Shown: piece after piece, positions 6,956 through 54,973 of the stretch
Position numbering within the stretch: the stretch's first letter is position 1
Layout of the letters: each line of letters opens with the position of its first letter
Assembly (NCBI RefSeq): GCF_019649055.1
Contig: NW_026570323.1
Location: 62,001 to 126,000, forward strand
DNA: 64,000 nucleotides
DNA from: Paramacrobiotus metropolitanus
Lineage: Eukaryota; Tardigrada; Eutardigrada; Parachela; Macrobiotidae
Direction of reading: 5' to 3'
Made by a program: the position numbers and the translations under genes
Notes under the pieces: generated by a model
What the model saw: the letters and a program-made list of their open reading frames with translations, nothing else
The model's database searches: none
What the model was told of the DNA's origin: nothing

Positions 6956-6959
6956 GTTT

Positions 6960-7200: not shown

Positions 7201-7259
7201 TTAAAAGAAATGGCCACATTAACAATATTCGCAGTACGTGCAGAATACGCACTAAGCGA

Positions 7260-7525
7260 GGTGGCTAGTTTCCCACCGTATCCCACAGTATTCGTTACGT
7301 ATCCTTCATGTATCCTGCTGGATGCAGGTTTAAGGGTCACCAGTAACTGTAGTATCCCAACGTATCTTAACGTATTCTTCCTGTATCCGTTGAGTATCCC
7401 GATATACTGCAGAGACACGGTGGGATACTGCAGTAACTAAAACAAAGTAGAAAATTTTGGGGATACATGAAGGATACGTAGAGGATACTGTGGAATGCGG
7501 TGGGATACTGTGGATACAACTAAAA
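7260..7525. repeat. GTATCC/GGATAC foldback repeat, copy 2
   Basis: Same vocabulary as 6,960-7,200 and 25,370-25,700: CGTATCCCACAGTA on the left, GGATACTG and GGGATACTG on the right. A non-coding foldback adjacent to the first copy. Confidence 0.5.
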
Positions 7526-21987: not shown

Positions 21988-22010
21988 AGACTCACCTCCC
22001 TGAGCTGCGC

Positions 22011-23477: not shown

Positions 23478-24376
23478 ATCTGCGGCTGAACTGGCGCACT
23501 GGCATTCTGTACAGAAATAGGAACCGTGCTGGAAATGGGATGCATCTGTGCACTCACCGTATACGTAGAGGAAACTGATCCTGATGAAGGAATTGATGTA
23601 CTGTAGGTTGTAGTGACAGTAGGCAGAGAAACTGCAGAGACCGTCACCGGGTTTCCGAAACTGGAATTCACAACCATCCGTAATGGAGAGGATGTCGTCG
23701 CAGTGGAAGTTCCAATTCCAGCAGAAGTAACTGGCGCCTGCATAGCGGCTGGCAACGTCAAGTTGTTCATCACAAACTGATTCACCACCGGAAGCGACCG
23801 GAGGGGAGATCCAATTCCAAATGGAATGGAATTCGGAAATGAAAAATTTCCAATTCGGTTCTTCGACGCCGAACGCAGCTCGTATGGGTTCGCTCCGAAT
23901 CCTACGTCTGATTCCAGGAATCCCGTATTCTGCAAGTCGTTTCCATCAACTTCTTCTTCTGTATCAGAAAGTTCATCCGAAATAATATTGGGATCCGCGG
24001 TTTGTTTCTTCTGAAAGACAGAATCCACGTCTGAATCAATACGTGCATTTCGTTCCTCTGCCGTCTCCACAGGAGCTGCAGGTGCAAGAGGTTCTTCGGC
24101 CAATGTCTCAATTTCTTCCTGAACAGGAGTCACAGGTTTCTTTGGCGGACTGCGGAACATCTTGCTGCTTCTAGCAAAAATACCGACAGAAAGCTGAATG
24201 GGATCCGCAGACGATAGCACTGTCACAGACGCTGTGGCTGCACTCGTAGTCACAATCACTGGGATATTGAGCTTCTTCACGTTTCCTGTCTTAGGAACTC
24301 TGGGTTTCCGGACTTTCTTCACAGGAGTTACTCTGAGAAGTCCACTACGAGTACGAGGACGATCGCTCGCTTCCAT
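23462..24376 (-). CDS. Pre-gag ORF of the Gypsy element (304 aa, unknown)
   Basis: First ORF after the 5' LTR. It has a basic N-terminus (RPRTRSGLLRVTPVKKVRK), an acidic middle (DELSDTEEEVDGND) and a Ser/Thr/Val/Pro-rich C-terminal half that is probably disordered. It overlaps gag by 16 bp, suggesting coupled expression. It could be a matrix-like or leader part of Gag; no family was recognised. Confidence 0.6.
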   Translation of the reverse strand: MEASDRPRTRSGLLRVTPVKKVRKPRVPKTGNVKKLNIPVIVTTSAATASVTVLSSADPIQLSVGIFARSSKMFRSPPKKPVTPVQEEIETLAEEPLAPAAPVETAEERNARIDSDVDSVFQKKQTADPNIISDELSDTEEEVDGNDLQNTGFLESDVGFGANPYELRSASKNRIGNFSFPNSIPFGIGSPLRSLPVVNQFVMNNLTLPAAMQAPVTSAGIGTSTATTSSPLRMVVNSSFGNPVTVSAVSLPTVTTTYSTSIPSSGSVSSTYTVSAQMHPISSTVPISVQNASAPVQPQICRIV

Positions 24377-29300: not shown

Positions 29301-32300
29301 GTGACGTCAGGCAGATATAAATTTTAAACGGAGGAACGTGATTGGTCGGTTACCCGAGCCGTGATTGGTCGAAAACTGAACTGAATAAATTGAACTAGCA
29401 GACCAATAGGAAACAGGTAAACAACGTAAATGGGGTTTTTCCGTTGAACTTGAACGGTAATGAGAAATTTGAATTGAAACGGGATATTTGAAAAGGAAAG
29501 TGACCTTTTGAGCTAGAACAAAGGAAAAGTGACCTTTGATTGAATTGAGCTGAAAAGTGACTTTTTAACAGAAATTGAGCTGAAAAGTGACCTTTAACTT
29601 AAATTGAGTTAGAAAGTGACCTTTGAGCTGAATTGAGTTTGGAAGTGACCTTTAAGACCAGAAAGTGACCTTTGACTTTGGAAAGTGACCTTTATTAAAA
29701 AGTTGGAACTGAATAATTTGACTTTAAAAGTGACCTTTAAGACCTGAAACTTACCAAAAGTGACCTTTTTAACGAAGTTGAAATCCAGTCGATTAGTAGT
29801 ACAGCGATATCATCAGCTGTAGAATTTCATTCGTGTTCTGAGCAATAAAAACGCTCTCAAAAATAGTCTGAAAAGTGATCTTTAGGGCAAATCTCTCGAA
29901 GTTTTTATCGAAAAAGTGACCTTTGAAGCAGAACTTAGTTGAATTTTTCAACTGAAAAGTGACCTTTAAAAGGGACTTAGAAAATTTCGCAGAATAAGGT
30001 GACCTTTAAGACAATTCAATAAACCATACAATAACGTGTGTGTGAGAACAATTGACAGGAGCGTCCAAGTTATCCGATCAACATGGATAAAGACAACGAA
30101 CAGCCGACATCTACTGGCAGTCAGGGAAGCACAAGCTCCCGCAGCTCACAGCAAGGTGCACCAAATCCGTACAAGAAAGATTTGCACACATACTCACGTC
30201 CAGTGGGACATGAGCGGAACACTCGAGCGCCCAAGGCATTCGAGAAAAAGGATTCGCGAGGCTCTGATAGCACTTATCAGAAGGCGCTCGAGGCGGTCGC
30301 CAACCAGGAAAGTTCCAGTGACGACCATAAGCAAACTCCCGCGTCCGCAGCGGGAGGAAAGCCGATGAACCAGACAAAGGCCACTGGGGAGGATCGATCC
30401 ACAGAAAAAGAAGTGGAAGCAGTGGGAACATCACAGTTGGATGTCACCACTGTCAGAATCGATGAGCAGGATAAGAATGTGAACCTGGCTCAAACGGATA
30501 TTGGAAACACAAAGGTCACCGAAGAGGAATTGACTGAACTTGGATTGGATGACCTTTCACTGAACGACAAGACTGCAGGTGATGACCTTTGGGCAACTCC
30601 AATGGTCTCAGACGAATCGAATGAATCGTACTTCACAGATGATGAAACGACGATGAATATGTCATTCCAATCGGCAATGAGACAAGCTGACTGTGCGGAA
30701 GGGATAACACCTTTCAAAGATATACCGGAGCACCTTATTGAACGGACACAAACAGGAAAGGTCATCAATGTCCGACCGCTATCACCGAACAGTCCCACAA
30801 CAACCCTGAGGAGACGCGTCAGTGAACTGGAAAACGAACTTGAAACCGATGAGCGACAGGCGGATAAACGGAAACAGGAATATCGAGAAAGACTGACGGC
30901 ACTTGAGACACGTCTCTTCGATTTGGAACAGCAACAGGATGACCGATGACCTTCAAAGTGCTGCAGACGGCTGGAAAGTGAAATACGAAAACAAAAGGAG
31001 ATGGCAGAAGAATATTTGAAAATGGTAGATGACAGAGAAATGGAAGGTCATCTCGCAGTCAATGACCTTAACGAAAGTATGTCGGAAGAATCAGCAGAAA
31101 GGTCACGACACTTAGCCGAATTGAAGGACGAATGTGACTCATTGAAACAAAAGGTCACCGAAGCTGAAGCTAAGAGGGACGAATACGCGATCAAACTCGC
31201 CGAAGCCTCTCAACGATTGTTGGCAAATACCACTGAAGTATTTAAGCTCAGAAACGATCTGAAGCTCCGAGAGGAGAATATCGGAATACTCCAACGAGAA
31301 TCGAAAGGTCATCAGAGGAGAGCTGATGAAGCCGTTCAAGCGGCTAAGGATCTGAGGGACCTTACAGCCACCGAAGGCGTGAGGCTGAGCAACGAGATAA
31401 AGCAGGTTACGGAAGAGAATGGGGCGTTGAAAGAAAACATCGAAAAGGTCACCGAAGAGAACAAAGAATTGAAAGAAACTGCCAAGACGTTAGCCGAACA
31501 AGGCTTAAGTTGGGAGCGAGAAGCGCGCCTTCTGGACACAAAGGTCACGGCGCTCGAATTGAAAGACAAAGAGTGGAAACAAATGGTTCATCAGAAGACA
31601 CAAGAGAGTATCAAACTCAACACGGAGTTGATAGATATGACTCAAACGGTAATGACGGGAGAAGATGAAGTCACCCAGACAAAGAATCAGCTGAAAGCGG
31701 CAGCTGAGGAATATTTGAAATTGGAAAAAGATATGACCCAGTTGGCAGAACACATTAAGAAAGTGGAGAACGACACTGAAAAGGTCGTTCAGGAGAAAAC
31801 GTTTCAGCTCCACCATCACATGTTAAAGGTCAACCAGGAAAATCAGGACTTGAGAGTCGAGAAAGAGCAATGGGAGTTAAAGATTAAACGTCTCGAGGAC
31901 GAGAACAAGGCTCTCAGCAGGTCCAATAAACACAAGGATGAACAGCTCTTACAATATGGAGTTAAGACGACAACGGTGGAATCGCCGCCGCCCAGTTACA
32001 GTAAGGCACATGAAACGGGCACGGGCAAAAGCTTCCACTTTGAAATGCCATTACGAACTGGCACTGGCAAAGGAAGCATTAGAACGGAACGAAATGGCGA
32101 AAAGGTCAAGGACAACGAAGAGCCACCGTCGGAAAGTTATCCGCATATGAGCCGAGGTGACCCTTCACAGTTTCCCCCACACATCGAAACGAACGTGTTC
32201 ATCGACGAAAGGCACCGAGACAGACCGTCGAGTCGCCAAGAGCGCCCAAGGAAGTCCCGCTACGCAAAGGAGAGGCGAAATACAAACGATGACGAAAGTA

Positions 32301-35300
32301 ACGAAGAAGAAAAAGACCCGAGAGGAGGCTTCGCATTAGCGAAAGCACTCAACTCCATGGCCCGGAAAACACCACTCGTGACCTTTGATGGCAGTCGCGA
32401 TACTGTAAATGGGTGGACAAGGCTGGTAAAAGACACTCAAAGAACTTACCAGCTCACCGACGATCAAATCATGATCGAGATAGCCAGCGCAGTAAAAGGT
32501 CCTGCTAAAACCTGGTTTGAGAGCGAAAAAGATATCGCATCAGAAGATGGGATCGAATACTCAGTAACAGAATGGATGGACAAATTTAAAGATGAATACG
32601 GTGATCGAGACGAAGAAGTCTTAGGCTTACGTGAGGCCTACGCAAGGAAATTCGAACTCGGAAAAGAATCGCTTGATCAATACTATCAGGCAATGATGCG
32701 GTTCAAAGCTAAGAGGATCATAACTGAAAAACAAGCAGTGGGCTTCTTAATCGAAGGATGTAGAGTGGATAATGAACTCTACAAGGCATTGCGTACACAA
32801 AAATGCAGAACGCCAACTGACGTAAAGGACTTTTTCCGACACTGGGCAACCGGAGAAGAAAAGTATAAAGCGCCAAAAGGTCAACGTAACCAAGATTATG
32901 TCACCATTCGTCAAGGTCAAGTCGAAAATGTGCCACAACAAAAGATTGCGGCAGTACCGGCCCAGCAGCCGGTTGAATACCGAGAAGCCCCAGTCAGAGA
33001 GGTCACAGAAAAGGTGACCTTTATCGATAGTCAAACGGGGCAGCCAATAACATATGCGATGGTGGCTGCGATACAGGCGGCGGCTCAAGTGAGACCGGTA
33101 CCTCAGAATGCGGCTCCACCGGTGCCACAGAACGTGGCCCCTTTGAATGTCGGATTACCACAACAAGGAGTGGGTAACGGAAATTTCGGTGGAAACGGAT
33201 ATGGGAACGGAAACTGGAACGGAGGTCAAGGAAACTTCCAACAGAATCAAGGTCAAGGTCAAGGCAACTTCCAGCCAAACAGAGGAAACCAGAACTTCCA
33301 ACAGAACCAAGGGTCACGGACAGAATTTAAATTTCAAATGATTGACGGATGGGTAGCGAACAATGCGCAGATGTGTCAATACTGCATGTATGGCAATCAC
33401 CAGACACAGGGATGTAAGTTCGCCAATACACCACCAGAACAGAATCCGAATCTGTTTGCCTTCAGGGAATGGCAACGCCTGCGCGGCCTGGGTGGTTGGC
33501 GCCAAGCAGTGGCAAACGGATATGATATCATCGCCCAATGGTATCAGCACAAAGCGAACTTCCCGAATCAGCAGGGAAATGGAAATGGCGGCGGCCAAAA
33601 TGGCGGTTACGGCCGTGGTGGTTACGGCCGCGGCGGCTTCAGAGGAAGGAACAGAGGCTTCGGCCGCGGAAATTGGAACGGCGGCAACCGAGGCGGTGGA
33701 AATGGAGGCGGCCAAGAAAACTACCAACAGGGTGGTGGCCAAAATTATGGAGGCGGCCAGAACATGGGAAACGGACAGAACCTGGCAAATGATAACGGAC
33801 AACAACAAGGAAATGTACAAGGCGCGCAACAAGGAGGTGCGTCGGTTCAGGAAAACGGGCAAGATCAGTAGGCGCCGGTGAGCCTACTGATCGCCCCGAC
33901 CCTAAACCACCGGATAAAAAGGGAACGGAAAGGTCACCACTGCAGAATGGTACTGCAGTAAACGTGACCATTGCAACGGCTAGATGGATGCCGTCAGCGC
34001 AAAACGGAAGTGGACCGGCTATATGGATGCCGCAACCACAGAGAGCGGCTATATGGATGCCGCCACAGCAGCAAAAGGAACTGGTTATCGGGAAACCAGT
34101 ACAAATGAATCAAAGGTCACCGCAGAATGGCACTGCGAGTGGAAGCGTACAAATGAATCAAAGGTCACCGCAGAATGGCACTGCGAGTGGAAACGCGCAA
34201 CGGGACCAAAGGTCACCGCAGAATGGTACTGCGAGTGGAAATTGTCGTGACGGTAGCGCGACACTGCGAACAGCGCAGCAAAACGAAAGGTCACCGTATT
34301 GCAGCGAAGAAGTGCTAGCGCAACGACGCGCACAAAGAAACGCGAAGATTCAACAGGCGCTGCGGAATCAAAGGTCACCACCGCAGAATGGTACTCCGAG
34401 TGGAAACTGTCAACGAACAAAATGTGACTCCGAACATGAAGAAATGGATGACGAGCAACACGCGAAATTCCGGAAATATTTGGCAGAAAACAATAAACCG
34501 AATGACCAAAGGTCACCACCGCAACAGAATATCGCGAACAAACGGCAACCCGATATAAAGCCGAGTTGCAACTGTCGCGTAATTGGAATAGGAAATATGG
34601 AAACGGAAATCCGACCAAGACTTTGCAGTTGCTTGGAAGATAAAAACCCAAAGCAGAATGCCACAACGGGCAGTCAAGATGAAAGGTCACATTCCATTGG
34701 AAAAGTTCAAGCGAAAGGTCAAGGAGCAATTGTGAACGCTAAAGGTCACGGTGAAATTGCCGTGTTAAAAGGTCAAGAAACAGACTTGACACTGCGAACA
34801 GCGCAGCAAAAGAATAGCGAACAGAACTCCGATGACTCACTCGTTGACGCAGTAACACTGCAACAGAAAGAAATATGGCAAAAAGTGGCCTACAGACCAA
34901 AAGGGAATCACGGGATGTGGATACCCGTAACGCCAAAAGCGAAACAGAAAGCGGGAATGTCACAAGAAGATTACTGGGACATGCGAGAACTGCGAACGCA
35001 ACACGAGAGAAAAAGACTAGAAGAGTTGGTTACCGGGAAACCAACGAAAGGGTCACCGAACCCTGTCCCAGTATTCAACGAAGACGAATACAAAAGGACA
35101 CTCGCTACCATGGCGGACCCTCGAAATGCACCACCGAAAGATAAACCGTTAAATTATGGAGAAAAAGTTCCCATACAAAAGCTGACAAATGGCGGATTTG
35201 TCATAAAGCGCAATGAAAGGTCACAGGACTTAGCGCAAAGTGAACAAAAAGGATGGTCAAAAGAGACGGCGCAAACGCAACAGAGTAACGCAGTTGAAAG

Positions 35301-38300
35301 GTCACGGGACTTATCGGAAGCACTCCAACGGGATGCCAATGACAAATCACCAGCCCGAACAGATGGAATGTCTTCGCAAATCGACCCGACGAAAACAAAT
35401 AATGAAGTTTCCGCAAAGGTGATTGAATGGATGACCCAAAAGGGATATGACATGGTTACATATGAAAGGTCACCAGATGGCATGAGAGACAGTGAAACAG
35501 ACGAACTGAAACGGGCTGAACAGATAACAAGTGAAGTCATTGAGAAGCTGCGAGATAAACGAAATGATGACCGCAAAGAAGAACTGATCTATCAGACGAT
35601 AAATGAAGTGACTAAAGGTCATGTGGACTGCACAAAAGCAAAAGAGCAAGTGCAGAATGTTGAAAAGGTCACCACAGACAAAAAGTCTGTAAAAGGAACG
35701 AATAAAAAGACTCGGGAATTTTACGATGTCCGAACAGATGTACCACACATGATTGATAAGTTGAGCGAGATACTGAAAGGTCATGGCACTTCAGCGAAGG
35801 GGCAAGTGCTTCCCGATATGGATCCGGGACCAGTATCGCTAATTCCTGTGAAGTGCAAGATTCACACATTGAAGATTCAAAACGGAAAATTGCCTAAAAG
35901 AATTGAAGCGTACACTCATGAAGTGAAAGTGGGAGACATAAAGGTCAACGCCATGCTGGACACCGGCGCTGAGACGTCGCTGATCAGCAAACCGTTTTGT
36001 GAGAAAAATGGACTTCATATGCTCCCATTGCCACCAGACAGACTGGTGAAGATAAATGGAATTAGCGGAACGTCAGGTTTCATGGTGACACACTACTGCG
36101 TAGCACCAGTGACCTTAAGGAAAAAGACTAGTGAACATTCCTTCTACGTTCGACCGAAGTGTGACGACGTACAGGTCTTACTGGGATTTGACTTCTTGGA
36201 AAAGAAATTTGTACTGATGGATAATGAAGGAGAAGAGGAGAAGGAAGATGACCCGAAACCAGTCGCCAAAGTTCAAGTCGGAAAGGTCACCGAACTTGTA
36301 ACACGGACGGGAAATGCTCAAATTACCGATAAGACGCTAATCCCAGTACCAGAGGCACAGGGAAAGGAAAAGAAAAAGACAGCGCAAAAAGAATTGTCCA
36401 CATTTGAACAGTTGAAAATGATTCAGCAAGAGATTGAAAACTCGTTAAATCGGACACTGCTGACACAAAAAGGAAGAGAAAAGGTCATCCCAGTACCAGA
36501 GGCACCGGGAGTGACGCAAGTGCAGCAGAATGTGACAAAAGTGCAGCAGGAAGAAGTTATCCCAGTACCAAAGGCACTGGAAACGAAAAATGAAGATGGA
36601 AATGTCGAAAAAGTTATCCCAGTACCAGAGGCACTGGGAACGAAAGATGAAAGGTCACCAGTACCAGAGCGTACCTTGAATCCTTTCGAACCACGATCAA
36701 CTACCCAAACTGAAGCTGTCACACAGAACGAAGCGACAGCTGCAGCGAAACAATCGCTCGTGCCAGGCATGGAGTGGGCAAAGCCTATCCCAATACCAGA
36801 GGCACTGGAAATAAAGACGGCTAAAGTGGAGAAGGATAAAAAGAGCGAAAGGTTACGGATATTGAAACGAATAGTCGAAGAAGAACAGATGTTCACAAGT
36901 GAAATTCGCGACAAAGCGCTTGAGCAGTTAAAAGGTCACCAAACTCAGAAGGAACAGGAAGCTATGGAGATACCTTCTGACGAGCCAAGCGTAATCCAAA
37001 TTGAAAACGACGTCCAAGAGACATTAACCCCAGAAGAACGAGCCGGGAGTTGTCACCACGGTTACTATGAGGATCCGTGTAGAGTGCAACCACAATGGAA
37101 ATGCACTGAATGTCATGAAAATACCTCTCAAGATGACCTTTCAGAATGGCCGAAATGTAATGCTGCGCTAGCGGACCTTAAAGGTCACGTTCAAAAGGAA
37201 GCGACAAGCATCATGCGGACAAACGAAATGTGGAAACCGCACATTGAACGGTACCATTGGAACAGATATCGGACTTGGCTGTCATGCGTGAAAAACTTCA
37301 TCACTGGAAGAGGTAAATGGCTGAACCATTGGCAGCAACGGGCGGAAGATGGAATCCAAGATCCGCTTGACCCGGTATCAACGAACCGAAGACTCGAAAG
37401 AGAGATGGACGAAATGAATGAAGAAGTACAGTTGTGGGAAGACGCGAGAATAGAACTGTTTTGGGACTTCCGCGTAAATCATATGTATAAAGGTCAAGGG
37501 AGAACAGTGATATTCCCAACAGGACTCGGCACACCTGTATATGAGTCAGTAGTGGTGTTCTGTAAGGCACTCAAGGAAGACGATTGGGATATATTTGATA
37601 AATATTGGAACAAATTTGAAGTGGAGATTCCTACATTTGATGAAAAAGAGATGCGGGAATTACAAGTAACCCGGAAAAGAAGATCACCGGGAATGATGGA
37701 GAAAAGAAGGTGACCTTTGCACCGGATCCAGACGGAGTTGATTACCCAGAACGAGGAGAGGATACGTAGTGCATGTATGAGACGATACCAGGCGATGACT
37801 GGGTTACTGAAGAATTAATGGCAAATTGCGTCTTCGTCGGTCCCAAACGACCTAAAGGTTATGAAACGGTCCAACAGGGCGAAACCAAGAAAGAGACTGC
37901 AAAAGAAGCAGAGAAGGATGAAACAGCTAAAGAGACAGCTGAAGGAGGATCGAATGAAACGGAAGAATCACACACCTCAGCTTTTAACATTGCAAAGATG
38001 TTAACAGATAGAGGAGAAATGTGGAGAAAATTTAAAGAAGAGGTGGAAAGGATATCAAATGAGCAACAAAACCCAGTAACTGAGGCAAAAAACGGGGAAA
38101 GGTCACTTGATAACGGTGAGGAATGTCCGCCGGTCAAGTTGACCGAAAAGCCATTAATGAGCCTGGAAGAAATTGAGGAACTGGAAAAGTCAAAATCGGA
38201 TGATGAAAGGTCAAACTCTGATCAGACGGAAAGGTCATAAACAAGAATACGGGTAACAAGGAGTCACCCGAGAATCGCTGCACGAAATGGACGGAAGATA

Positions 38301-47300: not shown

Positions 47301-50300
47301 CATACCAGACCTGGGCAGTTAATTTCAACTATTTAACTTAGCGCGAGTTTTTTTCGAGTTAACGAGTTATAACTTAACTTTGAAGCTTAACTCGCCAGGA
47401 CGAAAACTTAACTCTAGCGCAACTCAAAAATAATAAAGCGCAACTCGAGTTTAGCGTAACTCTGCGGATTTCAGTTGAAAGCAAAAATGAAATTAAAATA
47501 TAGAAAATATCAGAAAAAATGTTATTTTAACCTTGGATCGCATAAATTGCCATAATTACAAAAGTATGTGTGTACAAAAGTATGTGCATACAATTTCTCG
47601 AGCCGACGTACACTACGACCGCCCAAGGCTTTGACTAGGTGAATATGCATCGGGGAGTCCATGCTGACAGTGAGTGTGGTCGTTCAATTTGAGCTTAATT
47701 AACAGCGTGCAGAGAACGTATTTTTCAAAATTTTGTCATCGAGAGCACAAATCATGTTCGACCAAAATCACACGGGAATTGATCGCCTATGCGTCTTCGC
47801 TACCTGCCCATAAGGGAAGCGTAATAATGCGGTCAACGCTGTCAAACAGCTACACTAACTTCGGTAGCCATTGTGAAGCGAAATCACAAAAAAAAAGTTC
47901 AGCGTTGCCGGCGCTCGGCCCCAAAAAACCAGGGTCAAAAAGAGAGAGAACTTTTGAGAGGGAGGAATTTTTGTGTGGTTAAAAAAGAAGGAGGAATTTT
48001 ATCAGATAAGAACTTTTTTATGTTTGATTTTTTCTTGAGGGAGAGAGAAAACAGGCAGGAAAAACAATAAGAACAAAACACAAAAAACACAAGAATGTTT
48101 TCTTATGTTTCATTCTTTTGTTTCTTATTCTTTCTTTTTGTTTCATTTATATTTTCTTATGTTTCATTCTTTTGTTTCATTCTTATTCTTTCTTATGTTT
48201 CATTTATACTTTATCTTCTTCTCTCAAGAACACTGCGTCTGTCGCTCTCTCCCTCAGGAAAAACATGAAAAAGAAACAAGAGAAAAAGCATGAATTTTAA
48301 AAATCAGTTTTAAGATTGAAAAACTAATAATGGTCTGTGTCGCAAATCTGGAAAAACTGATATCGGCATGCATAAAAGACTACTTGAAGCTGATTACTAA
48401 AATCATAAATTTTTTTATTAGAAGTTAACTCCAGTTAACTCTAGTTACTGCGGCTAACTTAACTCATAGCGTAACTCGCGAGCTGCGATTAACTCTTAAC
48501 TCTAACTATGAGTCGAAATCTCATAACTGCCCAGGTCTGGTTCATACCATTGAAGGACGCCTTCGAGAAAGAGCGATCAAAGTCAGCAAGTGAAGTGAGA
48601 GACCACGGGACTTTGCCACAGAAAGAGAAGACTGAAGAACCAAAATCGGCTCAGTCATCATCGGGATCGCTGGCAAAATTAAGGATTGACGAAACGGAGG
48701 TAACCGACCCAACGGACTCGGCAAAATCCCCCCAGAAAACGGAAACGAAAGAGGCGACAGATTATTCGCTTGGAGCACCGTTAGATGTAAATAACCGGAC
48801 ATGGAATGAAGTCCAAAACGCGCTCCAAAGTGTCAGAGAAGGTGAAATGCTCGGTACAGAACTGAAGGGACAGGTTGCTGAAAACTCGAGAGGACGATCG
48901 TCACTCAGTATGACTGAGCGAGTTTTGAAACGAGCATATAAGGAAGGGAAGCTGGGATGTAAATACAACAAGGATAACAAAGTTATCTACTACCTTCCGA
49001 AACAGGGCAAGGAGCGTACACCCAGACTCGTGATGGAATTGGAGGCCTGGAAGATAGCCATTACAGATGTGGCTTTGGACGCCATTGGCGGTGCCAACGG
49101 AGCGTCATGGGGTGACCTTTCAAATTTCATGGCCGTTCATTATGAATTGGGAGAATTGAATATTGAGAACGATAAAGAATGGATAAAGAATGCCGTTGAA
49201 GCATTGATTGCAGATGAAGTGCTTCACATTAACCAGGACGGCCGCGTCGACTTCAAGCCGTATAAACCGTCGGCAAAGGAATCTGAGTGAATGGGACGAG
49301 TGTAATATGCAGCGAGTAATGAACCCTGCATATTACAGAAAAAGCATAAAATAGTTAAAAACGAGAGAGAAAAATTTTACGGAAAATTGAAAGTGAAAAG
49401 GTCAACCTGAAAAGTAGCGGCGTTAAGACTAATAGAAAAGGTCACAGTAGTCAGAGAATGCTAATAACGTGAGAAAGGTCACCACGTTATAGCGACAGAG
49501 AGGGATACAGGAGCTAGGAAAGTCTCAGCTCAGTAACGGAATAGGCGTAAAAATGACAGAAAGCCTCGATAATGGATAGGAACGGAAAAGATTAACGTGG
49601 AAAAGTTACTATGATAGATTGTTTTCTGATTGCAGATTTAAAACGGAGAAAAATGGCTCAAAAAGGTCAAGCCACTCCTAGAGGCTCGGCATCGACACCA
49701 GTTATAGACAGAGCTACGGGCTATAATCCAAAATGTCCGGACTGTTTAAGGAATAACAGAAAAGTCGATAAGAAATTCCCGTGCTATGCATGCATTCACA
49801 ATTTGGGCGACCCACATCGTTTCACTTGTTGGGATCACGGAAGCCAAACGTGGGAACCTGGACGTTTTTCGAAACCTCATCAGCGCGAGGAATTACGGCA
49901 GCATCCCAATAGAAGAGCGAATGCTACTCGAGGATCGTTACCGGGAAGCGATCCAGAATAACGAAAGTGGCTGGGATGAGACGCTAGAGCCGTTAAAGTG
50001 CCCACAAACGGACGCGTATCGGAAAAAGTTTGAGGAAGACCAAGAGAAGATGCGACTTCAGAGACTGGAAGATGAACTCCGGGCGAAGATTAACGCGGAG
50101 AACAAAAGGGCAAGCGAACAGGCGGCACGGGAGTCACTGCCCAGTCCGTCGAGTTCAGCGGTACCTACAGCCAGCCTCAACGAAGATGAAGCGCAGCTGA
50201 CACGTCAGTCTCTCATCATCCAGATCGACACGCTGACGAGCGACCCGGCCGCTATGCAACAGGAACTATTTGATGCGCTGTTACGGGAAAAATTGAGACT

Positions 50301-53300
50301 ACAGAAAGGTTTTGCTCCGGCGCCATACATAAAGAAGGCAGTCGAAGAACGTATGGCGGAGCTGCGCAAATCCCGTCAAAACGAAAGTAATGTTCTGCAA
50401 GCGCTGAGAGGATTTAAGCGGGACGAAGGCTTTATCCGACCTCGATCCCCTCCACGAAGAGAAAGGTCACGCGGACATTCACGCGAACATGAGCGAACCT
50501 CCGAGCGACGAAATGAAAGGTCACGTGAATACTCTCGTGAAAGGACACGGGATTACCGCAGTGAAAGGTCACGCGAACGTTCTCACGACCGAGATTACCG
50601 TGGCGGAAGAGGATGGGTGCGCCATGGCAACGAGATAACGGAAACGAGCATTCAACGGAAGATTGATACGGCGAAGATTTTGGCATCGACAAGAGGACGC
50701 GAAGAACAACGGCGTGCGGAGACTTACCGTACAGAGCCTGAAAAGAAAGGTCATCAGGTGCCGTTGGGAGTTGCGTTCCGTAACCGCAATGTCAGAATGT
50801 CAACACCCGAAAGGTCATGGGATCAAAGACGCGAACGTACGCGAAACCGAACGCCAGACCCACAGGATAAGAGATGGCAGGAAAGAGCCAAGTACTATGC
50901 GGGTTTTGAATCTGGCGCAAGCAAAAGGTCATCGAGCGCGGAGCGGGAAGATTCACCCCCAAAATATCAAAGAATGGAGTCAACGGTCCATGTGGTGGAT
51001 CCGATCATAAGTGCCGCTCAAGAGGATGACATGATGGAAGGGACCAGCTCAGTTGTAGAAGCGTCCCAAGAGAACGTGACCCATCGACGAAATGTAATCC
51101 TCGATAGTGACCTTCAACCGTCTGCATCGGCGAGTAATGAACCGTCGCAGCGTGAACCGGAGGAACGACGCGAATTGGAAGTCCAACGCGAACCGGATAA
51201 TCGTCGCGAAGCCGATCGACGAACGACTTCCAGATTTAACAACCGATACCCCGATATAATCGATATGGAATATAATATGAATGATACCGACGAACAAGCG
51301 GCGGAGATTTGCCGGTATCTGGGGATCGAAGGAGACTCAGCAGAAGCGAATAAGATTCGTACCGTACTGAATCACTTGCGCCAGTTCTTACTCGATTCTG
51401 GCTACGCTAGAGAAATTAAGAGGGGAGTGGAAGAAGGAACCTTCCGCCGGTTATACATTCCTCGCGACTCCGCGCTAGATTGTTATCTCCCCATCCGACG
51501 AAACGGCCTACACAGTTTGCTGGACGTGAGCCTATTAGACGTGCCACTGGACACGACTGACCCTGTCGGGATGACGCAATTTTATTACACAGACTATGAC
51601 GAACGACAGGAATATGTGGCTCAGTTCGTTTTAAGGCATGTGAATCCAGCCTTCAAGTTGCTTGCAGCGAGAGCATCGATCGGATTACAGGTGGACCCGA
51701 AAGATCATGCCGCAAAAAGGATGGGGCGAAAGGTCTTTGCTGCGAGACTGGCACATTATAAGACTCAGAACCAGTTGGTATCTAATACCATGAAGGACGA
51801 TATACCACCGTTATACCGACCTCATGTGGTGAAATTGGGAGAGCCAATGGAGCATATGGGAATAGCCCATACGGCTCGGAAGGCACTGAAGAAGTGCAGG
51901 ACCCGTAGGGAGAAAGGTAACCTTACGCAACGACATGCCTCCCAAGTTGAGGAGCGGATTAACCGGATTAAAGATACCATGGGAAGTGACTATGTCGAAC
52001 CAGTGGACGGAGTAGACGTCTACATTAACGAATTCCTGGTGAACAAAGGCGACCGACGCCCAGAACGCGCTCCTAACCAGATAGGACGACGCGGACTAAG
52101 AAACCAGCAACTCCGCGATAACCTCGCTGATGTGCAACGGCGACTGGCAGATGACCCTAATAACCGAGGACTGCGACTGGAAGAGCACGATGCACGCCAC
52201 CGAGTTGAGGCAGTTAAGCGCAGTCGCCAAGGGAAAGGTCGTGGTCAGCGAGAAGTTGACCCGGAAAAGGTCATGGAAGTTGACGTGACAGAGCCAGTTG
52301 ACCGGACTTCCGACCAAAATCAACCGAAAAGCACTAAGAAGCGCCCGCCGAGAGACGGCGAGGACGATTCAAATGAAATGCAATAGTGTTGATCGTTAGG
52401 ATCACACTATTAAAAGGACGTCTACGGCATTCGTCGGTACGTCATAAAAATGAAACGGTGTTGTATATAAGGGCGATATGACTTGTTCACATAAATTGTA
52501 TTCGTGTATTGTTGTTTTCAGCGGTTATAGCACAGAAACGCAAAGGATAAAGAAATCATGTGGAGCATCGATTGGGGTTGAAATTGATTCGGTCTATAAA
52601 GCCGGCCCCAAAGGAGTTGCTACGGCAGTTAGCCGGCTCTCCTCCTTAAGCGACTCAGTGTTACAAATTGGCAAGGGAAACTACGGTAATCAAGCCGGAT
52701 CTCTTGAATACGAAAGTGGGCCACAAGCGGCGAAAAAGAGAAAGACAACAAGTGGAAATATTAATGGGGTAAACTTGATGCGGCAGTCAGCCGGCCTCAT
52801 TAGAGTTGTCACGGTAAACTATGCCGGCAATCTCTCCAAGCGACTCAGTGTTATAAATCAACGAGAGAAACAGCGGTAATCAAGCCGGATCTCTCGTACC
52901 GAAGTTGGGCCACAAGCGGCGAACAAGAGTAAAAGATTAAATGTGGAAACGTCATGGGGTTAATTTAATGCGGTAGTTAGCCGGCCCCATCAGAGATTTT
53001 ACGGTAAACTCTGCCGGCACTCTGGCCGCTCGAGGCATATTGAAGTGGGGTGTGCGACGGAAAGGTCAACCGAAAATTTTACCAGGGAGGCAAGCGAAGA
53101 AATGCTTGAAAGTCGTCAGAAATCGGAAGTTCCTCCATGACCTTTAACAGAAGTTTTGAAGAAAAGTCAGATGACCTTTGGGAGTATCACTGCCCAACAG
53201 CGTCATTGTATTGAAATTTGGAATCGAAGTCGCATGACCTTTTGGGACCATTAACCCAGAACGAGTCGCACATCTCCACGGATCATCTCAACAAAGGATG

Positions 53301-54973
53301 ACCTTTACCAGGGAGGAAGCGAACCACGCTTGTCTATATGACGTCCCTCCATGACCTTTATTGGATCTCAGTTTAAGTCGTACAATTGATACGCACCATA
53401 TTCCAAAGATTGAAGCAGTATTCCTAAGTCGTACTTGATACGCACCCGATTCTCAAGCGGATTGTGATGAAGTCGCACTATGCGCAGAATTGCTCAAGAG
53501 AGCGGAATGGGCCAAAGTGCGGTAAACGGTGGACAGGACCTGTGACCTTTACGAGTCAGAAATGGAGGATCCTAGTCTACTTTTGATTAAAAACTTCTGT
53601 TGATCTGTTTAACTGTTGATCTGTTTTTGTATTAGAATTGATATGAAATAGTATTTTGATACAGATCTCTTTATTTCACATTGTGCATTTGGGATTATGT
53701 GATAAATGGAATAAGAGAATTTGATGTTTTTGAGCACGCACAGACACCGGCGACCGTCGTCTTTTCGTGGATTCGGGAGTGTGTCCAGCCTCAACGGAGC
53801 TCGGCATCCCCCCAGAGGCATGTGAGCGGGGGTTCACTAGCGTTCACACTCGTGACGCTACGCGCCACTGGATTACGTGTCTGTGTTGTGTCTCGCTTCT
53901 GATTGGCTCGCGCTTTATTAGTGGGCGCGGCATAGCACGTGCTGCACAGTGTTGCACAGTGTGGAATTGGCTCTACGTTTTACGATCGAGCTGCGCCGAT
54001 CAGTATGGATTTTCTGTGCTCCAGACTTTTCAATATTAAAAAGTCAGCTATACGCGGTGCGACGTTTTGTGTTTCCGCATAGTTCGCTACACTTTCGCGT
54101 AGCTCACTCCACAGGATAGATCCCGTTTCTGTCTCTGTCTCTGGATCCATTCTGGATCTAGCATTAGAGACATTTTGTTAAAGCATTCTTGTTGACCGAC
54201 AACCTGCTTTTCGGTGTGATACGTTGGTGTTTGAGTTTTCTTAGGTTTCTTGTTGTTTCTTCTTTTGGTTTTTAGGTTTCTTAGGTTCCTTAGCTTCCCT
54301 GTGTTTCTTAAGTTTTCCTAGGTTTCTTAGGTTTTCTTGGGTTTCTTAGGCTTTTTGGTTTATCACGTAAGCAAAATATCGTCAGCAAGCTGTCAGGTGT
54401 TCACAAGAAGTCGTTCTGCGAAATGTCGTTCAGCGTTTGTCGTTTCAACGAAATGTCGGGTCATCAGTTCGTCGGTCAGCAGGATAGTCGTCAGCGAATT
54501 GTCGGTGTGCTAAACGATTACGATTGCTCATGACTCCATTTGCAGGGTTATGCATATCGTCAGTAGTCATCGGCGGTATTTTCTGCATCTGCTGTGCAGG
54601 CGGTGCCGCGTTACCGTCTTAAATTAGCTGCACTGCTGCCGTTGAAATGGGCATTGGCGCAACCGCGGGATCACTTTCAGTTACCGCCCTAGTGAACTAC
54701 ACGTTAGGGGCGCTGGCGGGTTTAACGGGTGTGGGAGCTGTTGGTGCGCAAGTGCTGTCGCACGCCGGTGTGGGCAAGGCCCTTGCCAATGTACAAAACA
54801 TGCGCGAATGTCTTTTCAAGCTGACCAAAACAGAAGCTGTGTTATCCGGGGAACTGGACGGCTTGGCGTTCGGAGCAGCCGACTGCGCGACTGACGCTGC
54901 CTGGGTGGTGCTGATTCTGAAGAAGATTGAAGCGGAAGTCAAAAGAGGTTTTGAAATGTTGAACAACTTGTGA
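26389..54973 (+). CDS. Uncharacterised host gene, three exons, second intron holds the giant LTR element
   Basis: Exon 1 26,389-26,467 (donor GTAAGA), exon 2 27,816-28,124 (acceptor TTTTTCCAG, donor GTGAGT), exon 3 54,546-54,973 (acceptor TTTGCAG). All junctions are phase 1 and keep one frame. The N-terminal 130 residues are helical and soluble-looking (starts MAHLSFFTAKIIELLKSS). Exon 3 adds a hydrophobic segment (ISSVVIGGIFCICCAGGAA) and then, after an in-frame TAA at 54,620-54,622, 116 more open codons. These include a Gly/Ala-rich hydrophobic stretch and end at EMLNNL. As written, the product is 154 aa. The open, coding-like tail suggests a recent nonsense change, an assembly error or read-through. 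AATAAA lies at about 55,174. The overall plan (helices around Gly-rich hydrophobic segments) recalls membrane-inserting ApoL-like proteins, but I cannot assign a family. Intron 2 is 26,421 bp. Confidence 0.65.
26468..27815 (+). other. Intron 1 of the host gene
   Basis: 1,348 bp, from GTAAGA to TTCCAG. It contains the long foldback at 26,975-27,177; nothing else was recognised. Confidence 0.6.
26975..27177. repeat. 203-bp near-palindromic foldback (MITE-like)
   Basis: Left arm TATAGGGGGCAAAAGTAAAC... through ACTGCTGCCGTCACCCG...CTGGAGT; the right arm is its near-perfect complement, ending GTTTACTTTCGCCCCTTATA. Arms are about 75 bp with a loop of about 50 bp. It lies inside intron 1, so a transcript would form a long hairpin. 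Confidence 0.75.
28266..28613 (+). repeat. 5' LTR of the giant element
   Basis: 348 bp, starting TGTGAGCGGGGG and ending CTAGCATTAGA; identical by eye to 53,821-54,168. The far end lacks the usual terminal CA, although a CA occurs five bases earlier. Confidence 0.92.
28614..28624 (+). promoter_or_regulatory. Primer-binding site, initiator Met tRNA
   Basis: TGGTAGCAGAG directly after the LTR is the complement of the 3' end CTCTGCTACCA found in animal initiator methionine tRNAs (established knowledge). Pairing stops after 11 nt. Confidence 0.7.
28810..28903 (+). repeat. Duplicated leader hairpin
   Basis: GTCTTCAGCGAAGAC (6-bp perfect stem, 3-nt loop) occurs at 28,810-28,824 and 28,889-28,903. 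Each is preceded by CGGTACxG and followed by C-GTGCTG. The position in the leader resembles packaging or dimerisation signals of retroviral RNAs; that role is inference. Confidence 0.6.
29414..29419 (+). promoter_or_regulatory. Candidate 5' splice donor in the leader
   Basis: CAG|GTAAAC at 29,414-29,422 is the best donor-like site I see in the leader. It could pair with the acceptors at 43,114, 49,635 and 52,521 to make spliced messages for the downstream ORFs. Confidence 0.35.
29460..30012 (+). repeat. Leader array of GTGACCTTT motifs
   Basis: About a dozen copies of GTGACCTTT, mostly preceded by AAA and spaced roughly 25-70 nt, with otherwise variable spacers. The same octamer (TGACCTTT/AAAGGTCA) continues through the ORFs. 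Confidence 0.85.
30083..33871 (+). CDS. gag: Gag region of the giant element (coiled coil, capsid, CCHC knuckle, RGG tail)
   Basis: The first part (30,083-30,949) is polar and disordered and ends in a coiled coil. From about 31,000 to 31,930 there is a very long heptad-rich coiled coil (Glu/Lys/Leu). A retrotransposon-gag capsid domain lies at about 32,370-32,870 (LVTFDGSRDTVNGWTRLV; KTWFESEK). A zinc knuckle CQYCMYGNHQTQGC sits at 33,372-33,413. The tail from about 33,580 is Gly/Arg/Asn-rich with RGG-type repeats, typical of RNA binding. With over 1,200 codons, this Gag is far larger than the usual Gypsy Gag, mainly through the coiled coil. It is expected to form particles and package the RNA. 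Confidence 0.82.
33964..37713 (+). CDS. Protease-bearing ORF with extensive linker repeats (1,249 aa)
   Basis: The aspartic-protease core is MLDTGAETSLISK (about residue 664) with VLLGFDFL about 80 residues later. The N-terminal third is low-complexity and includes tandem copies of QRSPQNGTASG. After the protease come five or six spaced copies of IPVPEALG-like peptides and one FEPRS peptide, then a Cys-rich stretch (CHHGYYEDPC...CTEC) and a tryptophan-rich C-terminal domain of about 170 residues. Gypsy proteases are normally about 100 residues within Pol; here the protease is embedded in a protein over ten times larger. The roles of the flanking parts are unknown. Confidence 0.72.
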   Translation: MTIATARWMPSAQNGSGPAIWMPQPQRAAIWMPPQQQKELVIGKPVQMNQRSPQNGTASGSVQMNQRSPQNGTASGNAQRDQRSPQNGTASGNCRDGSATLRTAQQNERSPYCSEEVLAQRRAQRNAKIQQALRNQRSPPQNGTPSGNCQRTKCDSEHEEMDDEQHAKFRKYLAENNKPNDQRSPPQQNIANKRQPDIKPSCNCRVIGIGNMETEIRPRLCSCLEDKNPKQNATTGSQDERSHSIGKVQAKGQGAIVNAKGHGEIAVLKGQETDLTLRTAQQKNSEQNSDDSLVDAVTLQQKEIWQKVAYRPKGNHGMWIPVTPKAKQKAGMSQEDYWDMRELRTQHERKRLEELVTGKPTKGSPNPVPVFNEDEYKRTLATMADPRNAPPKDKPLNYGEKVPIQKLTNGGFVIKRNERSQDLAQSEQKGWSKETAQTQQSNAVERSRDLSEALQRDANDKSPARTDGMSSQIDPTKTNNEVSAKVIEWMTQKGYDMVTYERSPDGMRDSETDELKRAEQITSEVIEKLRDKRNDDRKEELIYQTINEVTKGHVDCTKAKEQVQNVEKVTTDKKSVKGTNKKTREFYDVRTDVPHMIDKLSEILKGHGTSAKGQVLPDMDPGPVSLIPVKCKIHTLKIQNGKLPKRIEAYTHEVKVGDIKVNAMLDTGAETSLISKPFCEKNGLHMLPLPPDRLVKINGISGTSGFMVTHYCVAPVTLRKKTSEHSFYVRPKCDDVQVLLGFDFLEKKFVLMDNEGEEEKEDDPKPVAKVQVGKVTELVTRTGNAQITDKTLIPVPEAQGKEKKKTAQKELSTFEQLKMIQQEIENSLNRTLLTQKGREKVIPVPEAPGVTQVQQNVTKVQQEEVIPVPKALETKNEDGNVEKVIPVPEALGTKDERSPVPERTLNPFEPRSTTQTEAVTQNEATAAAKQSLVPGMEWAKPIPIPEALEIKTAKVEKDKKSERLRILKRIVEEEQMFTSEIRDKALEQLKGHQTQKEQEAMEIPSDEPSVIQIENDVQETLTPEERAGSCHHGYYEDPCRVQPQWKCTECHENTSQDDLSEWPKCNAALADLKGHVQKEATSIMRTNEMWKPHIERYHWNRYRTWLSCVKNFITGRGKWLNHWQQRAEDGIQDPLDPVSTNRRLEREMDEMNEEVQLWEDARIELFWDFRVNHMYKGQGRTVIFPTGLGTPVYESVVVFCKALKEDDWDIFDKYWNKFEVEIPTFDEKEMRELQVTRKRRSPGMMEKRR
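37773..38549 (+). other. Acidic linker region between protease and RT ORFs
   Basis: Includes an ORF of 155 codons (37,773-38,240) rich in Glu, Lys and Thr, then Ser/Asp/Glu-rich coding-like sequence leading into the RT ORF. Low complexity, no domain. It is dotted with AAAGGTCA/TGACCTTT like the rest of the element. Confidence 0.5.
38550..43004 (+). CDS. pol: Pol: reverse transcriptase, RNase H, integrase (1,484 aa)
   Basis: Reverse transcriptase spans about 190-470, with the catalytic YIDD near residue 363. RNase H starts at VIECDASKEGIG (about 510), with DHQALT further on. The integrase zinc finger is at about 860-910 (HDEKAAGHLG ... CQGCQ). Catalytic D, D and E lie in YADLKGP, HTDRGRHF and GQVERQM (about 936-1032). 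A long charged C-terminal extension (about 1,230-1,484) has four or five spaced copies of an (F)FEPRTA peptide. The order RT-RH-INT marks Ty3/Gypsy. The enzyme copies element RNA and integrates the DNA. Confidence 0.92.
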   Translation: MLDLDEDDEVDEEKEQEIKVRRVKIQRARLSKDVIKIYSDQRIRLKPSNCTRVKVKMGKYAPAQNRLMFTPIPQVETDVQPLAGVTEHRGKYFEIVIANHSSKYQIVKKNQLLGYVEPYEHMENVKVNAGTVENVLDDPEVDDTTKAELTKIIGNLKLGPDLTEEQKNDVYNAFWEFWKVLPTSKKPYGDVKGVTHVIDTGDAKPVKCNPARTSWTGREFITKHIEEMLAQDVIEPSDAEWSFPVVLAVKKNGDGTMGTRFCVNYIMLNKLTRKNNYPLPNPDELLDACAGNKYYGKMDLQSGFWQIPMDPASINKTTFVTQDGMYRFKRMPFGVCNAPAAFQLCMDKVLSKAQRKGCVFGYIDDVIFAGKTWAIFMQNLRNVLMSLVEAGFTIKPTKCEFGMREMGFLGHILSEDGIRMDPEKVTAVSEFKRPQTERQLRSFLGLANYYRKFIMGYAQKTCHLYELLRQDKQVKKDWTKVHEDEFNSLKQLLCEGPVLAKFDPAKPTVIECDASKEGIGAVLSQEGHPIAYASRVLHGAERNYGVTEWECLAVVFAVRKFKPFIDYAEFTVRTDHQALTNLLRSETNKVGMNPRLTRWAMALQGHQFKIEYKPGKYCDNADALSRAPIEGPTCQEEEFDEIPNFEDYKKEFDTQEPAIEIGQLFLQMVEQRKRLKVTSATANESAEPEVKVNRVKSWLPTVSDLKVTGLEAEFEAPNGKVTGLNEVAENRDDLWETDKVAQALNECPIKLLRFPKQTKKRYKPLPRCKVIKDWNELSTATVRIVNLQGDEEEEDDSNLQLRNKQLKDPHLAMIIDELEHLPDAETRSKFEVYYQLWNGILYRVKDKNGKLERSYVVPLSMRRAIIHALHDEKAAGHLGFEKTLSAIRLRYYWDRMSTDVKNYILACQGCQFRKTPRKCPPGKLQEIKVGHPFFRVYADLKGPLLPTKKRGYKYIAVFIDQLTKYVIAVPMKTATAKEFAKVFVKHVILVHGAPHILHTDRGRHFTAEVLTKVTNVFKIKHTFGTAYHPEGQGQVERQMQTIADGLAQYLKAGNERKFNKYLPYVISAMNRVVHATTGYSAYYMLHGREMTMPEDVVTKTNIPDDYGTPDEWVETMKKNLTFAEEVAKCNIKDAYEKNAEIYNKRKSEPNFKVGDLVLIRLPKDTKQGKKENQSDFKSKYDKVWKILSFPRANEAEVIEQNPKKEADLKVVSIDRLKLWHPPLPDEGAERTFKKESLFEPPLLPEMKKGDDNEAEEAEHDPKNGPSQFFEPRNLLPDPISGDKPKKKRGRPRKADKDFETAVTIKLNAEAGDLTEKSSEKETNQEVAERASQKDFELNQKPFSEPRTAAKDTDDLLKQQTGAEISERDSNLFEPRTATEKENRQKDGELPERNSRKDPQQSFFEPRTATENENDLIKKRKKEIEAVKSKAEQLGRDIAKAIDERKVKQKKKKPTPTELLTQKGEVEDAADKELLDRITKGRKDK
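43101..43118 (+). promoter_or_regulatory. Splice-acceptor-like site before the post-pol ORF
   Basis: TTTCATTGTTACAG at 43,101-43,114 lies 16 nt before the ATG at 43,131. This is an ideal placement for a spliced subgenomic message, as Gypsy and retroviral downstream genes use. A donor-like CAGGTAAGC overlaps it immediately downstream. Confidence 0.5.
43131..44363 (+). CDS. First post-pol ORF, unknown (410 aa)
   Basis: The first 240 residues are low-complexity: Gly/Pro/Tyr-rich (QGGPYGGPGYYGYPGQP), then Pro/Met-rich and RGG-like. The last 170 residues look folded and helical (EAIQDFNRMCRDLYRLHMR; FYGRLISLDAI). No transmembrane segment or signal peptide, so not an envelope. No known family recognised. 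It may be an RNA- or particle-associated protein of the element. Confidence 0.6.
   Translation: MDRLERQNSDNSDSESIGNPLKTSTPKRMEGEYSYDTSYGEGSTSSVGTVQNEPGTAQGGPYGGPGYYGYPGQPTNYQDTVNWVHHGSTAGTQYTEQPMHNTPYQTYPGSYTSPMGPPQMMMGPARMLMPPPQQTTPSRFMGHGGFSGMLATPVQSQRASPILPPFPETGGLSLSDIGAPRMRSPQQLGAQRPHRNSPHKGGRRGGNRFDSPRPRGILPSLGPNLEQVEVGPEGLRATPPGEPKVHEYSPKLPLDMREDDGRLNVIVGDGEKLVAADAEAIQDFNRMCRDLYRLHMRVEDEHAFYGRLISLDAIVVPAHIAMKEKTKIIEVQRKELAIRIASMKQYHPALTNRKWPPMIEQIQIFLRMIPKVKKPPTSGVAGPSRALVETPVEEMSDSVLLETKKKLRQN
44564..49290 (+). CDS. Second post-pol ORF region, unknown, interrupted by a hAT-like insertion
   Basis: The main part (to about 47,059) encodes some 830 residues. Two similar basic modules occur near the N-terminus (FTVKYTGTDHNEQKVTARIVDKGTNK...; then YTDGTCRKVTLKLHFEDD..., each followed by a PxxRxxPxVLIQMM-like stretch), suggesting an internal duplication. 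They are followed by acidic and lysine-rich low complexity and a helical C-terminal domain. Right of the insertion (about 48,548-49,290) lies a 250-residue region. It has two helix-rich segments resembling winged-helix/linker-histone-like folds (TELKGQVAEN...; ASWGDLSNFMAVHYELGE...ALIADEVLHINQDG...). That fold is a guess from the pattern. The region is broken at least by the insertion. Confidence 0.5.
47306..48539. mobile_element. Non-autonomous hAT-like DNA transposon inside the giant element
   Basis: 1,234 bp with terminal inverted repeats CAGACCTGGGCAGTTA / TAACTGCCCAGGTCTG. The flanks ATTCATAC (47,298-47,305) and GTTCATAC (48,540-48,547) form an 8-bp target duplication with one mismatch. 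An 8-bp duplication and a CAG...CTG end are hAT features. Sub-terminal AACTCG/TTAACT words are repeated at both ends. No transposase. It lacks the AAAGGTCA motif of its host element. It inserted after the giant element was formed. Confidence 0.82.
49611..52386 (+). CDS. Third post-pol ORF region, unknown (about 900 codons)
   Basis: The N-terminal part has a Cys-rich zinc-binding-like pattern (CPDCLRNNRK...CYACIHN...TCW). This is followed by a helical segment, an Arg/Ser/Glu-rich stretch (about 50,450-50,620) like an RS domain, and a disordered acidic/basic middle. A folded-looking domain of about 300 residues (about 51,240-52,100; EICRYLGIEGDSAEANKIRT, FVLRHVNPAFKLLAARASIG) precedes a basic tail. 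RS-like stretches usually contact RNA or splicing factors; that role is inference. No known family. The region appears to have about one interruption. Confidence 0.5.
49619..49635 (+). promoter_or_regulatory. Splice-acceptor-like site before the last ORF
   Basis: TTGTTTTCTGATTGCAG ends 17 nt before an ATG at 49,653 (MAQKGQATPRG). It is a strong pyrimidine tract plus CAG and is consistent with a spliced message for the last ORF. Confidence 0.5.
52508..52521 (+). promoter_or_regulatory. Splice-acceptor-like site in the 3' region
   Basis: ATTGTTGTTTTCAG ending at 52,521. It is followed by a non-coding repeat, so any spliced product would be mainly untranslated. Confidence 0.3.
52590..53035 (+). 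repeat. 190-bp tandem repeat in the 3' region, about 2.3 copies
   Basis: AAGCGACTCAGTGTTA recurs at 52,648 and 52,838; AATCAAGCCGGATCTCT and GGGCCACAAGCGGCGAA recur at the same spacing. TTAGCCGGC/GCCGGC words allow stem-loops. GGGCCACAAGCGGCGAA also occurs in the 5' leader (28,955-28,971). Confidence 0.75.
53821..54168 (+). repeat. 3' LTR of the giant element
   Basis: 348 bp, identical by eye to 28,266-28,613. The sequence just upstream (CATCCCCCCAGAGGCA) is not a typical polypurine tract. Confidence 0.92.
54173..54545 (+). other. Remainder of host intron 2 with simple repeats
   Basis: An irregular TTTCTTAGG-type pyrimidine-rich tandem tract (54,235-54,358) is followed by GTCGTCAGC/GAAATGTCG word repeats (54,375-54,505). 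It ends at the exon 3 acceptor. Confidence 0.5.

Follow-up and report, generated by a model that had tools for sequence, protein, structure and literature searches.

An octamer, AAAGGTCA, and its inverted form, TGACCTTT, are repeated through the genes of a giant retrotransposon of the tardigrade Paramacrobiotus metropolitanus, and comparison of related elements showed that the octamer is a selected, clade-specific DNA tag, present in the clade of this element (clade A) and in a second clade (C), and not in the sister clade B. The window, by which we mean the whole 64-kb stretch of DNA that was analysed, contains 71 AAAGGTCA and 33 TGACCTTT; of these, 70 and 30 fall in the 25.2-kb interior between the LTRs (28,614-53,818), all of them within 29,460-53,560, and the rest of the window holds 4 of the 104. 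The initial annotation had described the octamer as pervading the element in both orientations where about one copy was expected by chance, and both statements agreed with our counts (100 of 104 copies in the interior) and with a second-order Markov model of the interior, which gave an expectation of about 1.9 for both strands. In an unsupervised scan AAAGGTCA ranked first among the element's 8-mers by enrichment (z 67), and in the genome searched (169.8 Mb in 533 contigs) the octamer occurred 21,195 + 21,367 times versus 7,593 + 7,929 times for its letters in backward order. The closest protein matches, at 86% and 92% identity, were to P. metropolitanus. A nematode origin, considered at first, was rejected on these matches; an SL1 RNA search gave no hit, but it gave none in its control genomes either and so carries no weight.

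The giant element is a Ty3/Gypsy-type LTR retrotransposon (Table 1), with protease in o3, reverse transcriptase, RNase H, and integrase in o4, and o5 to o8 thereafter. The Pfam domains of o4 follow the Ty3/Gypsy order (PF00078, PF17917, PF17921, PF00665), and the other features expected of this type, LTRs and a short target duplication, were seen as an exact pair of 350-base LTRs and as GACA, found by eye before the 5' LTR and after the 3' LTR, a possible 4-base duplication. From its position and a CCHC-like knuckle o2 is probably Gag, the CCHC-like spacing having been recognised by eye only and a Pfam search of o2 having given no match. The reading frames o6 and o7 appear to encode a single long protein whose frame is broken in the window copy, since o7 lies inside an open frame of ~1,640 aa in many copies; o7 itself had at least 148 matches in the genome (best 147 of 265 candidates). 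Copy L009 skips from window position 47,278 to 48,604, so that ~47,279-48,603 is missing there, and this jump, together with the lack of octamers in 47,230-48,540, is consistent with an insertion; a search for the ends of a hAT insert, as an exact 8-bp duplication with terminal inverted repeats, found none, and the hAT class given in the initial annotation is putative. The RS-rich stretch of o8 is SR protein-like, with several octamers there read as ERS, and it may have been shaped by the octamer. Rfam and tRNA scans of the 64-kb window gave no match.

Table 1. Features of the giant element (window coordinates) and clusters of the word AACCGACCT (contig coordinates, genome G000)
Feature	Position	Strand	Description
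5' LTR	28264..28613	+	exact 350-base match to 53,819-54,168; 0 octamers
leader	28614..30082	+	12 octamers, all inverted, TGACCTTT at 29,501 to 30,000
o1	30083..30949	+	288 aa; no Pfam match; 2 forward and 2 inverted octamers
o2	31001..33871	+	956 aa; 8 forward and 2 inverted octamers
o3	33964..37713	+	1249 aa; aspartic protease PF13975, 3.7e-8; 23 forward and 1 inverted octamers
o3b	37770..38240	+	short open stretch before pol; 3 forward octamers
o4 (pol)	38241..43004	+	PF00078, PF17917, PF00665; 10 forward and 5 inverted octamers
o5	43131..44363	+	410 aa, no assigned function; 0 octamers, 2 permitted places
o6	44564..47059	+	831 aa, no assigned function; 5 forward octamers
o6-o7 intervening stretch	47060..48507	+	octamers at 47,115, 47,157, 47,192
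o7	48508..49290	+	260 aa, no assigned function; 1 inverted octamer
o8	49786..52386	+	866 aa, no assigned function, RS-rich; 7 forward octamers
3' non-coding tail	52387..53818	+	1 forward and 6 inverted octamers
3' LTR	53819..54168	+	copy of 5' LTR; 0 octamers
AACCGACCT cluster	C1:908460-936941		17 copies; possible tag of another giant family
AACCGACCT cluster	C1:1833228-1865603		16 copies; possible tag of another giant family
AACCGACCT cluster	C1:3886512-3914650		12 copies; possible tag of another giant family
AACCGACCT cluster	C2:2386193-2416022		18 copies; possible tag of another giant family

The distribution of the octamer matched the earlier description in most respects. The about two dozen copies reported for 33,927-37,713 were found as 24 forward and 2 inverted, neither LTR nor the putative insert contained any, and the peptides ERS, KVT, KGH, DDL, and VTF occurred at octamers in the ORFs as claimed. 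The use of all three frames held for forward copies (frames 0, 1, and 2), the inverted ones in ORFs being confined to frames 1 and 2; the supposed similar density from leader to 3' region did not hold, as there were no copies in o5 and from 1.3 to 8.2 per kb elsewhere in the interior. Spacing showed more clustering than expected at random (coefficient of variation 1.35 versus 0.98). Helical phasing was rejected, no phase being detected at 10, 10.5, or 11 bases, and so was regular spacing, the gaps being clustered with no common partner distance by eye.

Protein coding did not account for the octamer. When synonymous codons were shuffled inside each ORF 1000 times, with the protein and its codon usage kept, the shuffled ORFs contained on average 5.4 forward and 0.4 inverted octamers (maxima 13 and 4), far below the 58 and 11 of the real ones. 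The initial annotation had argued that selection on protein could not be the cause and had named codon-preserving shuffles as the check; these shuffles and the conservation at fourfold-degenerate sites (below) bear that argument out. Among all ORF positions at which the protein sequence permits an octamer, the window element has filled 57 of the 71 forward places and 11 of the 13 inverted ones (one further forward copy, extending into a stop codon, lies outside this tally), percentages that are partly circular because the peptides may themselves have evolved to permit the octamer. What is informative in these figures is how alike the two orientations are, an agreement that points to double-stranded DNA. 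The sister element C97 has filled 0 of 26 forward and 0 of 9 inverted places, and it has fewer of them, 35 in 17.8 kb of ORFs as compared with 84 in 19.8 kb for the tagged element, so that the proteins of the latter may have been bent by the DNA signal.

To follow individual sites through related copies we used the best-matching copies in the genome (best 29 of 2670 candidates). Of 30 loci cut out, 29 had octamers and one, L027 of C97, had none. The conservation set consisted of 26 tagged copies (L002-L026 and L028), aligned over a 3.96-kb piece of pol, where their identity to the window was 85.5-88.9%; a single match split into L029 and L030 was excluded. The 13 octamers in this piece were kept in 94% of comparisons, and each in 73-100% of the 26 copies, whereas frame-matched random 8-mers were kept in 29% (highest 58% in 10,000 draws). 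The four inverted sites were likewise conserved (73-100%). Inside octamers, identity at the 18 fourfold-degenerate positions was 99.1%, compared with 65.6% at the 510 such positions elsewhere (p = 4e-9, a value that overstates independence since the copies share ancestry), and at all third positions it was 99.0% (38) versus 68.7% (1281). First and second positions showed no significant gap (99.5% versus 96.0%, p = 0.17), as expected where the proteins are already conserved. Third-position identity was 0.96-1.00 across octamer bases 1 to 8 and fell on both sides, to 0.80 at base −1 and 0.56 at base −2 on the left and to 0.68 at base 10 and 0.76 at base 11 on the right; with bases 0 and 9 at 0.96 and 1.00, from one site each, the edges are located within about one base. 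We concluded that selection acts on the octamer bases themselves. The initial annotation had asked whether motif positions were conserved, and had held that relatives keeping the peptides and not the octamer would count against a role for the word. Clade B does this for some peptides, by eye, but it is a separate clade; inside the tagged clade the 13 pol octamers themselves are kept.

The base that follows the octamer is also restricted. At the 100 window sites it was C in 56, T in 26, A in 17, and G in 1, and among the 26 copies G occurred at 8 of 706 sites (forward, 5 of 530; inverted, 3 of 176); in the clade C piece L069 it occurred at 1 of 10. The true site is therefore nine bases, AAAGGTCAH, of which AAAGGTCAC is the form with C at base 9, AAAGGTCAG being the avoided form with G. 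Avoidance of G in both orientations makes a splice-donor effect unlikely, as that would act in one only; it looks like the preference of a binding protein.

Related elements differ in whether they carry the tag. C97, of clade B, has the gene order of the window element, a size of ~24 kb, pol pieces 72% and 87% identical to it, and other proteins ~40-61% identical. Its LTRs are identical over 367 bases, indicating that clade B has recently been active without the tag. No octamer was found in its interior (~23.3 kb, searched as four pieces with the joins outside the search), one octamer in L031 lying beyond it; at the 25 octamer places of the window pol locus C97 has none, several of them keeping the peptide with other codons (by eye). 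The clade B pieces L068 (2.5 kb) and L071 (2.1 kb) also had none. In contrast, the more distant clade C, with o6/o7 29-38% identical to the window, had 10 octamers in 2.5 kb (L069) and 6 in 2.1 kb (L070), and shuffles of L069 gave 1.5 with a maximum of 6 (n=1000). L069 and L070 are 69% identical in nucleotide sequence, and of their 7 aligned octamers 5 were kept against a background of 8%. None of four aligned o6 sites of the window was common to L069, about none being expected at 47% identity; the word would thus appear to persist while its places turn over, the turnover being read from these four sites. Gain of the tag in the window clade after its split from C97 was rejected, since the distant clade C is also tagged; clade B may have lost it, or an ancestor of A and C may have gained it, as the tree built from eight o7 domains is unrooted. 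Pieces of farther families (L035, 7 kb; L036, 6 kb; L037-L039; L067) had no octamers.

Other words are over-represented in other families. One related family is enriched for AACCGACCT, which to our knowledge is not a nuclear-receptor site. This word occurred genome-wide 1523 + 1467 times versus 895 + 848 for its control and formed clusters of 17, 16, 12, and 18 copies in 28-32 kb (among the first 100 places listed), and the cluster at C1:908-937k contains a pol match of the AACCGACCT family. Its conservation in four copies was mixed, with chance fractions of 0.004, 0.02, 0.20, and 0.24 depending on the reference. In L067 three long open frames held 10 AACCGACC, in all frames, versus 1.7 in 300 codon shuffles (maximum 6). 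C97 showed a diffuse excess of AGNTSR in four parts (both coding halves, leader, and tail). In L068 AGNTSR occurred 42 times versus 28.5 in shuffles (maximum 41, n=500) and AGNTGA 12 versus 9.2, not exceeding shuffles, and L071 had no excess (AGNTSR 22 versus 20.7, AGNTGA 7 versus 6.2). Site retention between L068 and L071 was slight (AGNTSR 4 of 29, 2.6 expected; AGNTGA 0 of 10, 0.9 expected). With so weak an excess and sites hardly kept, we do not claim either as a clade B tag. At most, the words suggest a separate tag per family.

The explanation that we favour, tentatively and as something short of probable, is that the octamer would be a recognition tag in double-stranded DNA, placed as the nine-base AAAGGTCAH at most of the positions that the proteins permit. 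A sequence-specific DNA-binding protein would bind the whole provirus through these sites and act on the element's own copies, most likely by keeping their chromatin open or expressed (anti-silencing) and less likely by handling the 25-kb cDNA. A promoter or a packaging signal could make do with a local cluster, and sites along the full length fit licensing of chromatin better. The reader, the weakest step, would by a small margin be a host monomeric NR4A-type nuclear receptor, with an element-encoded protein close behind. The genome encodes a DNA-binding-domain piece, L054, covering half of the domain only, with NGFI-B/NR4A1 (1cit, 3.1e-21) as its best solved match and RXR next (1.8e-16). NR5A- and ERR-type domains seem to be present in the genome as well, and CAAGGTCA, which we take to be the NR5A/ERR form of the site, is rare (7 versus 100 octamers). 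The NR4A response element, NBRE, is exactly AAAGGTCA and is described as bound by a monomer, hence free of orientation (PMC7901948); unlike NBREs in host promoters, the octamer occurs in about 100 copies across transposon coding sequence. One word in both clades A and C, despite o6/o7 identities of 29-38%, would also fit a conserved host reader. The initially proposed binding by a host nuclear receptor thus agrees with the word and with the NR4A-like domain, and a tag marking self stays viable after the shuffles and the conservation data, the reader being putative in each case. Against NR4A, a host receptor alone leaves the coding-sequence-wide sites unexplained, the match of an octamer to some known factor by chance is not very unlikely, and the related family has a different word; against both NR4A and the tag reading in general, clade B was recently active without the tag. 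A literature search for the NR4A2 motif with AAGGTCAC found no paper.

The close competitor is a reader encoded by the element itself, a fast-evolving product of o5 to o8 that would bind the tag and protect or activate its own family as VANC does (PMC5735166, PMC10398659), so that families would bear different tags. Such differences exist, between clades A/C and B and in the family with AACCGACCT. The best candidate, by eye, is o7, in which clades A and B have LSMTERV and SGNSFDR, respectively, beside a common KRAYKEG (by eye). However, clade B, which is untagged, also has o7, and near the pol-tied AACCGACCT cluster at C1:908-937k no match to o7 was found (best 147 of 265 candidates); the presence of o7 does not track the tag, and we treat it as no more than a candidate. 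Its resemblance to two winged-helix domains was by eye only, Pfam and solved-structure searches giving no support, and sequence searches yielded no DNA-binding fold for an element-encoded reader. The mixed conservation of AACCGACCT and the lack of a convincing clade B word also weigh against this reader, which we consider possible and rather doubtful. A bound protein might instead compact or import the unusually long linear cDNA in a pre-integration complex; an even spread over 25 kb and freedom of orientation suit duplex cDNA equally as well as chromatin, but clade B elements of ~24 kb manage without the octamer, and we think this unlikely. A role in RNA, either in packaging by Gag or as a modifier of splicing or export in the sense transcript, would explain why ORF copies are mostly forward (58 versus 11) and why leader copies have one orientation (12 of 12), and AAG/GT resembles a splice donor. 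It would not explain why orientation tracks coding opportunity, why the leader orientation is opposite to that of the ORFs, why inverted sites are conserved, or why G at base 9 is avoided in both orientations; as both orientations fill alike and the four inverted pol sites are kept, the Gag motif and the splice modifier of the initial annotation are not sustained, and an RNA-level motif is most improbable. That the octamers are an artefact of codon bias, repeated peptides, tandem duplication, or gene conversion can practically be dismissed. Tandem repeats do contain some of them (48 bp at 34,099-34,241, with three o3 octamers; 29 bp in the leader, at 29,524-29,655; 24 bp at 50,514-50,577), but the shuffles fall far short, three frames and both orientations are used, flanks share no common sequence past base 10, conservation is restricted to the octamer, and C97 has none. 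Taken jointly, and with guarded confidence, the favoured tag reading describes a barcode: a nine-base word would have been written, largely through synonymous substitution, into most permitted places, a DNA-binding protein would read it on provirus or cDNA and so tell self from genome, and sister lineages would have dropped or replaced the word, families keeping separate barcodes.

These results bear on the question of how a mobile element directs a protein to its own long DNA and not to the host genome, for which the main worked example known to us is VANC in plants, using non-coding repeats. In the VANC/VANDAL system of Arabidopsis, as the cited reports describe it, sequence-specific anti-silencing depends on words (YAGTATTAY; AGTTGTCC or AGTTGTAC for VANC6) that sit in tandemly repeated, non-coding parts of plant DNA transposons (PMC5735166, PMC10398659). 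The likeness to our element is a short word multiplied in one family. According to the same reports the VANDAL tag marks whole elements for one protein, and related families have other words, with gain and loss even among subfamilies; here AACCGACCT, of mixed conservation, may be such a word in one related family, and any clade B word is weak. Unlike VANC words, 69 of our 100 are in ORFs and mostly outside tandem repeats, and the carrier is an animal LTR element with a putative reader, that of VANDAL being known and tested. A site array in an LTR retrotransposon is also found in Drosophila gypsy, whose Su(Hw) site is presumably not our octamer. The gypsy insulator is described as 12 Su(Hw) sites clustered within 460 bp (PMC9576066); the leader here also holds 12, but these are 12 of 100, the rest being spread over every gene except o5. 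DNA uptake sequences of Neisseriaceae and Pasteurellaceae are reported as short words, spread by point mutation under recognition bias, that occur also in unconstrained coding sequence and form dialects among related species (PMC1939737, PMC3630211). Those words act in bacterial DNA uptake. We know of no uptake-like process for the giant element. In the literature searched, which covered few subscription journals, we found no report of a tag of this kind in an animal retrotransposon. Recognition words of mobile elements were already known; their writing through genes is apparently new. In this animal retrotransposon the strong selection on the word, which acts within coding sequence, can be measured by comparing sequences only, and with a natural untagged sister as control the reader and its effect are directly testable.

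Several minor observations were made on these elements. Octamers are crowded together after pol (some 12-20 in ~1 kb) in 6 of the 26 copies (L002, L003, L009, L018, L022, and L025, at ~6,160-7,440 in coding orientation); in L003, L009, L018, and L022, the copies compared, this dense stretch follows a jump from window position 43,073 to ~47,093 or 48,604, which looks like absence of o5 and o6. Two 190-base tandem copies lie at 52,648-53,023, directly ahead of the octamer-rich 3' tail. Tandem repeats without octamers occur inside the sister o3 (L033 5,824-6,229, C97), and the start of the window o3 has comparable ones at 34,099-34,241. The minus strand of the window carries another Gypsy-type element (17,734-24,376), which contained no octamers and served as a negative control. 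An ORF at 59,247-60,902 with a DNA_pol_B_2 domain (1.2e-33) may be part of a Polinton/Maverick-like element.
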